Made by a program: the position numbers and the translations under genes. From Sneathiella sp. (GTDB taxonomy: Bacteria > Pseudomonadota > Alphaproteobacteria > Sneathiellales > Sneathiellaceae), in contig NZ_NZMB01000012.1 in NCBI RefSeq assembly GCF_002694385.1, forward strand, positions 40,778 through 104,777: a stretch of 64,000 nt of DNA, given 5' to 3'. Shown piece by piece: positions 61,042 to 64,000 of the stretch; position 1 is the stretch's first letter; each line of letters opens with the position of its first letter. Under the pieces are notes generated by a model that was not told the DNA's origin, searched no databases, and saw only the letters and a list, made by a program, of their open reading frames with translations.

Positions 61042-62520
61042 TTGTATTGTGAGCGTAACATGAAACATTATGAGGAGCTTTCCGGGGGAGAAGGTCGGCG
61101 TGTTTTTTATCGCGCAGAACGCTTCAATGCCAAAACCTTGATGAGTAGTATATCGCCGATTGTCGAGATGGATGACCGATCTTTCGATATCTACGACATC
61201 AGCATGAGCGGAATAAGTTTTGTCAGCCCACAGAATTTTTCCTGGCTCGAAGACATGAATAAGGATGTTCCGCTGCAACTCAAGATCGGAACAACGGAAG
61301 TTTTCTCGGGAAATGGTAAAATCCGCCGGATTGAACCGCACGAAAATCAGCATAAGGTCGCTGTCGAGCTAACCCGCGGTTTTCTTGATATCAAGAAAAT
61401 TCTGGCGCAGCATGATGATCTCGCGTTGCAGCAGGCCGTGACTATCGGCCTCTCCGATCACTCTCGGCTTGTACCGGCTGCCTATAAGGAAGCAATCGGT
61501 GATGCAGTCTATATGTTCCGCTCCATACACAAGGTTCTCGACAAGGTTGAGGCCGATCTCGGGCGCGATGATTCCCGGCGCAGCGAACGCATAAAGGATA
61601 TTATCCTCGCCTGTGAAACGAAGGCATTGACCCGCTGGAGGGAAATTTCAAAAAAATGCCTGAAAATCACGGAAGAGCTGGGAGACGATAGCCTCGCCAT
61701 TGCCGCCGTCAAGCAGTATACGGAAATGGTGCTGACACCGGAAATTCTACCCGGAGCAAGCTGGGACCGCGCCTACAGCAAACCGCTCGGCTATCCGGGC
61801 GATTATCAGGTCATGAACTATGCCTATAATCTGACGCTGGAAGGCGACACGGCCTATGCAAAATTCTGCCACCGCCTCGGCACCTCAACAGGTGAGTTCA
61901 TCGCCACTCGCATGACAATGACCAAGCAGGCGATCGCTCGCCTCTGTACAGAAGCCGCCGCCCGTGGACGGAGCGATTTCAAGGCCGCGAGCCTTGGCTG
62001 TGGCCCCGCACAGGAAGTCGCCAATTATCTGAAAACGCCGAATATCCCGCTTCCGGTTGAGTTCACTCTCATAGATCAGGATCATGACGCACTCTCCTAT
62101 GCCTATAACAGCACCTATCCCGAGGTAGTCCGGCTCGATGGCATGGCCTGGGTTCGTTGCCTGCATGCCACATTCCTGGAGTTTCTGGCGACAGGCAAGC
62201 TGTTCAGCAAACTCGAAAAGCAGGATCTGATCTATGCTGTGGGTCTTGCCGATTATCTTGGCAAAAAGCGATCCACCAAACTGGTCAATGACCTGTACAG
62301 CAATCTGCGGCCAGGCGGGACGCTGATCATCGGCTGTATGCGTACATCGGAGACAAGCCTCAAATGGCAGGTCGAATATGTGGTGGACTGGACATTGGTC
62401 CATCGCACAGAACAGGAAATGTTCGAGCTTGCAGAAAATCTTGATCCGGCGGCGAAACGTGAAGTTATTGCAGATCCGACGGGTCATTGCCATCTTCTCT
62501 TCGTGACAAAGCCAGAATGA
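61042..62520 (+). CDS. PilZ domain fused to a class I SAM-dependent methyltransferase (PhcB-like / 3-hydroxypalmitic acid methyl ester biosynthesis-like)
   Basis: RVFYR (RxxxR) + DISMSG (DxSxxG) PilZ motifs; SAM motif I ASLGCGPAQEV, acidic loop FTLIDQDHDAL, LRPGGTLIIGC; KPLGYPGDYQVMNYAYN. Confidence 0.8.
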   Translation: MYCERNMKHYEELSGGEGRRVFYRAERFNAKTLMSSISPIVEMDDRSFDIYDISMSGISFVSPQNFSWLEDMNKDVPLQLKIGTTEVFSGNGKIRRIEPHENQHKVAVELTRGFLDIKKILAQHDDLALQQAVTIGLSDHSRLVPAAYKEAIGDAVYMFRSIHKVLDKVEADLGRDDSRRSERIKDIILACETKALTRWREISKKCLKITEELGDDSLAIAAVKQYTEMVLTPEILPGASWDRAYSKPLGYPGDYQVMNYAYNLTLEGDTAYAKFCHRLGTSTGEFIATRMTMTKQAIARLCTEAAARGRSDFKAASLGCGPAQEVANYLKTPNIPLPVEFTLIDQDHDALSYAYNSTYPEVVRLDGMAWVRCLHATFLEFLATGKLFSKLEKQDLIYAVGLADYLGKKRSTKLVNDLYSNLRPGGTLIIGCMRTSETSLKWQVEYVVDWTLVHRTEQEMFELAENLDPAAKREVIADPTGHCHLLFVTKPE

Positions 62521-62573
62521 CGGAGGAAGCATTCAAGAGGGGGATCCGCTGTCCATAGCGGCGGAATGGATCA

Positions 62574-63971
62574 TTATCCTCTAGCGGCTTTTGCCCGACC
62601 ACTGTCCCCGTCGATCTGGCGATCCACCAGACGCTCTTTCGGGAATTCAACAATGGCGACCGTTCCCTCACCAAGGCGGCTGTCGAGTGTGATCGTCCCG
62701 CTATGCAGCTCCATGATATTTTTGGTAAGGGGCAGCCCTAGTCCTGTTCCATCATAGTTGCGAGCCATGGAGCTTTCTATCTGAACAAACGGATCGAAGA
62801 CCTTTTCGATATTTTCAGGATCAATACCAATACCCGTATCACGGATGCGGATCTGGAGGTTTCCGTTCTCAAGCGACTGGAAACCAATAGAAACCGATCC
62901 GCCTTTATGGGTAAACTTCACCGCATTGGAAAACAGATTAAGGAAGACCTGCGCCAGAAGCCGCGGATCGCCAATCATCCGATGATCCCGCGACGGAACA
63001 TCAAATATGAGGCGCACGCCCCGCTCCGCCGCATTATCGCGAATGACCCGCAAGGTTGAATTGACGGTATCAACGATGGAGACTTCCTCTTCCTGCAACA
63101 CCAGTTTGCCCGCTTCCGCCTTCGACAGATCGAGAATATCATTGATAATGCTGAGCAGATGCTGGCCACTGACATTGATGTCGTGGGAATACTCCTGATA
63201 TTGCTCCTTGCCGAGCGGGCCGAACATTTCTTTTTCCAGAATTTCCGAAAACCCGATGATAGCGTTAAGCGGTGTCCGCAGCTCATGCGACATGATTGCC
63301 AGAAATTCGGATTTCGAATGATTGGCCGCCTGGGCCTTTTCTGCCAGGATATCGCTTTTGACCCGTTCTTCATCCAGCATCTTCATATTGATAAAGTCGC
63401 GGCGCTGCGCCAGTTCCTGAAAATAAGCGGCGAAAACGCCCATCCCTGCCGCCGTCAGCAGGAAAAAGTCGTTGGCCATCAAAATCAGCAGCGGGATCGG
63501 ATTATACCAGATCGCCGCGATATGATAGGCCGCGATCAGGAACACCGTGACAAAGGACGCATACAGAAACCGTGTCGGCGGCAGGCAGCAACAGAAGATA
63601 ATCAACGGTGTCAGACCGGCGTAATAAAGATAATTTCCCGGCTCATCGGCAATGGCCGTCATCACAATAATACTGACGCCCGAGGCAAGCATGCAAAATG
63701 CCGCACCTGGCTGCGCGAAAATTGCGTAGTATTTCGTATAGGTCAATCCGAAAACGATCAGAAAAATCGGGATTGCAAAACAGAAGCGTATAATCGCCGC
63801 TTCCTTGAAAACCTCAGGAATGGCATAAAAGTCGAGGATTGAAAAAGCGGCATAAATAATAATGGCGGACAGAAGCGACAACCGCATGACACCAATTGAA
63901 CGGGCGATTGCGGTATCGTTATAAGCGCTTTCGACTTCATGATCGACAAAACGCAACGAAAATCGGTTCAA
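62574..63971 (-). CDS. Integral-membrane sensor histidine kinase
   Basis: About six N-terminal TM segments; H box SHELRTPLNAIIGFSEIL; N box NLFSNAVKFTH; DTGIGI; GTGLGLPL. Confidence 0.93.
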   Translation of the reverse strand: MNRFSLRFVDHEVESAYNDTAIARSIGVMRLSLLSAIIIYAAFSILDFYAIPEVFKEAAIIRFCFAIPIFLIVFGLTYTKYYAIFAQPGAAFCMLASGVSIIVMTAIADEPGNYLYYAGLTPLIIFCCCLPPTRFLYASFVTVFLIAAYHIAAIWYNPIPLLILMANDFFLLTAAGMGVFAAYFQELAQRRDFINMKMLDEERVKSDILAEKAQAANHSKSEFLAIMSHELRTPLNAIIGFSEILEKEMFGPLGKEQYQEYSHDINVSGQHLLSIINDILDLSKAEAGKLVLQEEEVSIVDTVNSTLRVIRDNAAERGVRLIFDVPSRDHRMIGDPRLLAQVFLNLFSNAVKFTHKGGSVSIGFQSLENGNLQIRIRDTGIGIDPENIEKVFDPFVQIESSMARNYDGTGLGLPLTKNIMELHSGTITLDSRLGEGTVAIVEFPKERLVDRQIDGDSGRAKAARG

Positions 63972-64000
63972 TTTCGTTCCGTTAAAGATAGATTCAATTG

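Follow-up and report, generated by a model that had tools for sequence, protein, structure and literature searches.

The window, by which we mean the whole 64,000-nucleotide stretch of DNA from the marine bacterium Sneathiella analysed here, ends in a convergent pair of genes that almost certainly belong together functionally and are related to PhcB and PhcS, the synthase and the sensor of a fatty-acid-ester signal in the plant pathogen Ralstonia: a PilZ domain fused in one polypeptide to a PhcB-type methyltransferase, and a membrane histidine kinase with a PhcS-type sensor. To the complete statement, i.e. that the pair is a PhcBS-like lipid-signal synthase/sensor module with the synthase gated by c-di-GMP, we assign even odds (a probability of roughly 0.5). 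The initial annotation, made from the sequence alone, had read the locus as a quorum-signal synthase/sensor pair whose synthase responds to c-di-GMP; this reading is now partly supported.

Layout of the locus and gene boundaries

The locus comprises the following features, with coordinates given as positions in the window:

61060..62520, + strand: PilZ-methyltransferase coding sequence, 486 aa, stop codon included
61060..61389, + strand: N-terminal PilZ domain (aa 1-110)
61099..61113, + strand: RxxxR motif, R14-VFY-R18
61195..61212, + strand: [DN]xSxxG motif, D46-ISMS-G51
61390..61755, + strand: helical linker or cap (aa 111-232)
61756..62517, + strand: class I SAM methyltransferase part (aa 233-486), with the KPLGYPGD motif at 61780-61803
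62521..62573, no strand: 53-nt gap between the convergent stop codons, with the inverted repeat GATCCGCT...AGCGGcggaatGGATC
62574..64000, - strand: membrane histidine kinase coding sequence, 5' end beyond the window
62634..62972, - strand: HATPase_c domain
63108..63317, - strand: HisKA domain (SHELRTP)
63357..63971, - strand: multi-TM sensor region, PhcS-type

The open reading frame originally given as 61042-62520 (+ strand) is indeed open and ends at 62520, but its start has to be moved. The N-terminus MKHYEEL or MKHYEDL, beginning at the ATG at 61060, is common to all 15 aligned Sneathiellales members, which makes the TTG at 61042 an unlikely start; protein length is likewise conserved in Sneathiellales. 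The multi-TM histidine kinase, described as convergent and about 50 bp away, lies 53 nt from the methyltransferase gene, and the inverted repeat between the two stop codons could, judging by its sequence, act as a two-way terminator. As a start of the kinase gene we rejected the TTG at 63971: close relatives have CTC, CTT, TTA or ATC at this position, whereas the frame upstream of it is conserved, and therefore the kinase, which continues in locus L006, probably starts past the end of the window. No dedicated response regulator had been seen before the window ends, and the DNA beyond 64 kb bears this out, with none present over roughly the next 10 kb past the kinase: the gene for an FAD-dependent oxidoreductase is followed by atpC/D/G/A/H and then by priA. 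The oxidoreductase family found upstream of the kinase in Sneathiella (L006:9959-11287) recurs in two distant MAGs (L115:2587-4131; L121:4071-5525), where it lies upstream of the methyltransferase. In the draft genome of Sneathiella glossodoripedis (L073:6001-8986) both the methyltransferase and the kinase genes seem frame-shifted, which may be due to sequencing error or decay.

Relation to PhcB and PhcS and conservation of the pair

The full-length AlphaFold2 model of the window protein (mean pLDDT 90.6) has a class I methyltransferase fold in its C-terminal part, as also identified by Foldseek. In an hhalign comparison the window family matches the PhcB-type alignment with a probability of 100% (E 7.9e-39) over 393 columns, the helical linker included (columns 71-473), which places the window protein in a PhcB-type family, even if PhcB-type proteins are only about 20% identical to it. 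The initial annotation had likened a segment of the protein to PhcB-like proteins annotated as ‘3-hydroxypalmitic acid methyl ester biosynthesis’; the likeness holds, and the C-terminus is not placed in an unrelated methyltransferase family. The motif KP-GYPGD is invariant across the 54 family sequences. When used to search the window's own genome (Sneathiella, 3.6 Mb in 30 contigs), the PhcB-type profile recovers the window gene at E 3.2e-27, the next match being at 0.097.

A comparison set came from two further searches. The phylum-wide search yielded L138-L143, with a methyltransferase gene followed by a multi-TM kinase gene on the same strand, and the plasmid search yielded Paraburkholderia graminis L168, in which genes for a methyltransferase, a kinase and two regulators follow one another (MT-HK-RR-RR). 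Residue 22 of the L168 methyltransferase is Arg, the same as in Ralstonia PhcB, where the R22C mutation lowers signal output (PMC6989110), and the phospho-accepting His of the L168 kinase is residue 233, as compared to H230 in PhcS (PMC11960443). Because of these two residue positions, taken together with the operon order, we infer that the set is phc-like. The plasmid search additionally returned two Enterobacter ludwigii plasmids (NZ_CP134637.1 and NZ_CP134634.1), on which a stretch of a gene carrying the annotation ‘type I polyketide synthase’ resembles the methyltransferase part.

The HisKA and HATPase_c domains of the window kinase score far above the Pfam cut-off (E 1e-21 and 2.3e-28, respectively), and its sensor matches PhcS-type sensors in hhalign with a probability of 96.8% (E 2.7e-10), as compared to at most 28.8% (E 6e-4) for reversed, block-shuffled and unrelated membrane-protein controls. 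The two sensor types are bridged by the sensor of L126, a deltaproteobacterial MAG, which is matched by both the Sneathiella-type profile (1.3e-14) and the PhcS-type profile (4.6e-13) and belongs to a hybrid kinase (kinase-receiver-kinase; L126:1758-4400) encoded convergently to a PilZ-methyltransferase. The sensor is thus homologous to PhcS-type sensors; the initial annotation had compared the kinase with PhcS by its position next to the synthase. The window kinase was not recovered in a direct search with an HMM built from six close PhcS-type sequences. Around the phospho-accepting His it has SHELRTP and not the HEVNNP of the PhcS-type core, which is found in L138, L141 and L168 (HELNNP in L143); its core thus represents another subtype, and we claim only the sensor to be PhcS-like. 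The same-strand order of phcBSRQ (synthase, kinase, two regulators) is also absent from the window, where the pair is convergent and has no adjacent regulator.

Linkage to the kinase is conserved in relatives. Of 80 named loci one (L065) ends inside the gene, and among the 79 assessable ones the kinase is convergent to the methyltransferase in 76, the exceptions being L101, L107 and L134. In two Parvibaculum MAGs (L101:6001-7452 and L107:6001-7452) the PilZ-methyltransferase is kept and another gene occupies the kinase position. Within the class, 35 of 385 genomes encode the methyltransferase and all 35 also encode the sensor (Fisher p 1e-37, computed with relatives that are not independent); the two genes share a contig in 32 of the 35 and are convergent in every one of these (32/32).

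Such pairing could in principle arise with no functional tie, the genes being kept together by shared 3' ends (a terminator or an overlap) or by plain synteny. The very short or overlapping 3' ends seen in many loci would fit this explanation, as would the conservation of the flanks within Sneathiella. Against it, the pairing persists between lineages that differ in their gene flanks, the pair is inverted as a unit in Minwuia L075, where its rppH and atp flanks are those found in Sneathiella, the presence and absence of both genes coincide, and the PhcB-type relatives keep both partners, in same-strand order instead. The pair is also found, with a 4-nt overlap, on the cyanobacterial plasmid pPSE7367.01 of Pseudanabaena sp. 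PCC 7367 (L167:3253-6539). Given the L075 inversion and the matching presence and absence in the class genomes we rejected plain synteny as the cause, and we consider the lack of any functional tie highly improbable. Close to the plasmid pair lie a regulator gene, a Tn3 transposase and a recombinase, which suggests horizontal transfer.

The PilZ domain and a putative c-di-GMP-gated lipid signal

Taken on its own, the window protein scores 18.2 bits against Pfam PilZ, under the cut-off of 22.5; at the family level, PilZ is matched by 40 of the 54 members at E<=0.01 (best 1.3e-5). The AlphaFold2 model of residues 1-125 (mean pLDDT 88.8) has the PilZ beta-barrel fold, and its top Foldseek matches in the PDB are the PilZ structures YcgR, VCA0042, Alg44, BcsA and PlzA, many of them c-di-GMP-bound; MapZ bound to CheR1 (5y4r, 5xly) is also on the list. 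PDB sequence searches gave nothing useful. Family-level Pfam matches, models and Foldseek together bear out the combination of PilZ and class I methyltransferase, and the claim that both c-di-GMP motifs are intact is upheld as well: every motif residue is kept in R14VFYR18 and D46ISMSG51. The genome encodes diguanylate cyclases (nine GGDEF matches) and has four PilZ matches besides the window protein.

Does the PilZ domain respond to c-di-GMP? The pair could signal as in Ralstonia with no c-di-GMP control, the PilZ part being merely structural or partner-binding. This would be in keeping with the loss of the first Arg of RxxxR in 25 of the 54 relatives (K in 13, lost altogether in 12, so that the full RxxxR is found in only 29), with PhcB-type proteins working with an N-terminal region that has neither motif, and with the failure of some PilZ proteins to bind c-di-GMP. 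However, R18, [DN]46, S48 and G51 are constant in all 54 sequences, the motif is complete in the window protein as in all of its Sneathiella relatives, and the PilZ model matches c-di-GMP-bound structures; we therefore regard a signal module free of c-di-GMP control as improbable. The PhcB-type N-terminus, for its part, matches the PilZ profile alone at 31.7% (E 5e-4), with shuffles reaching 22%. As this match is not significant by itself, the resemblance is suggestive and a degenerate PilZ domain in PhcB is only a lead.

Under the c-di-GMP-gated signalling reading, the methyltransferase part would, as in PhcB, methylate the carboxyl group of a fatty-acid-derived substrate, yielding as signal a hydrophobic ester, perhaps a 3-hydroxy fatty acid methyl ester like the 3-OH PAME or 3-OH MAME made by PhcB. 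This ester, or the lipid, would be detected by the multi-TM PhcS-type sensor of the convergent kinase, which would pass its phosphate on to a response regulator whose gene lies at another locus. Binding of c-di-GMP to the PilZ domain would alter the activity or the location of the methyltransferase, in whichever direction, and signal output would thus depend on the cellular c-di-GMP level.

We clustered the genes adjoining the pair into families and then named these. In 13 loci from several lineages the kinase has as its neighbour a FadL/OmpP1/TodX transporter, FadL being the outer-membrane channel for long-chain fatty acids. The FadL gene lies upstream on the kinase strand in some loci and is divergent in others, its presence as a neighbour changes seven times on the tree (with relatives that are not independent), and in five genomes the kinase-adjacent copy is the only FadL match found. 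In the Sneathiella genome itself we found no FadL. In 34 loci (most Parvibaculales and some others) the methyltransferase gene is preceded by an MMPL transporter gene. As evidence for export machinery these neighbours count for little, since such genes are numerous: the genomes concerned have 8-26 MMPL/RND matches each, and the window's own genome has four.

The same neighbours fit ordinary fatty-acid traffic equally well, and an intracellular role has to be weighed, in which c-di-GMP controls the modification of a fatty acid or membrane lipid by the methyltransferase, the kinase responds to the state of the membrane or its lipids, and no cell-to-cell signalling is involved. It would suit a membrane-embedded sensor, an orphan kinase with no phc-type regulators beside it and a product whose export we only infer. 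Set against this is the match of both partners to PhcB- and PhcS-type proteins, the sole such pair whose role, namely signalling, is known. We consider the intracellular explanation possible, though unlikely. More tentatively still than the gated module itself, one may picture a common alphaproteobacterial system in which c-di-GMP directly sets the output of the synthase and the ester reaches the PhcS-type kinase through a FadL-type channel, Ralstonia PhcB being derived by loss of the c-di-GMP site; we would sooner bet against this wider scenario than for it.

The fatty-acid-ester quorum sensing of Ralstonia has so far been assigned to the Ralstonia/Cupriavidus/Paraburkholderia group. A distant version that is spread far more widely, among marine and soil Alphaproteobacteria, would extend ester signalling past that group. 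If the c-di-GMP-gated reading is true, the main intracellular lifestyle messenger acts directly on an intercellular signal, and one module ties the internal state of the cell to cell-to-cell signalling.

Comparison with known systems

Our searches, which covered mainly the open literature, found no account of such a PilZ-methyltransferase fusion, or of PhcB in connection with c-di-GMP. With Ralstonia PhcB/PhcS the Sneathiella pair shares a methyltransferase with a helical linker and the KPLGY-GD motif, as well as an adjoining histidine kinase with a homologous multi-TM sensor. It differs in that the Sneathiella enzyme, at about 20% identity, has intact PilZ motifs, the genes are convergent and not in operon order, PhcR and PhcQ are not adjacent, and the core motif of the kinase is another. 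The pair of Pseudanabaena sp. PCC 7367 is closer, with a methyltransferase that is 41% identical and a convergent kinase whose sensor is the same (E 3e-38), although there the PilZ part is missing, a recombinase gene lies alongside and a response regulator is attached.

Among PilZ proteins, MapZ of Pseudomonas aeruginosa is known to act on a methyltransferase, CheR1, in trans. While MapZ-CheR1 likewise combines a PilZ domain with a class I methyltransferase, MapZ and CheR1 are separate proteins acting on chemoreceptors, whereas in Sneathiella the two parts form one polypeptide and the methyltransferase is PhcB-type. Finally, BcsA and Alg44, in which the PilZ domain controls the protein that carries it, resemble the Sneathiella protein in having PilZ fused in cis, but as an exopolysaccharide enzyme or export protein they differ from it in both the fusion partner and the product.
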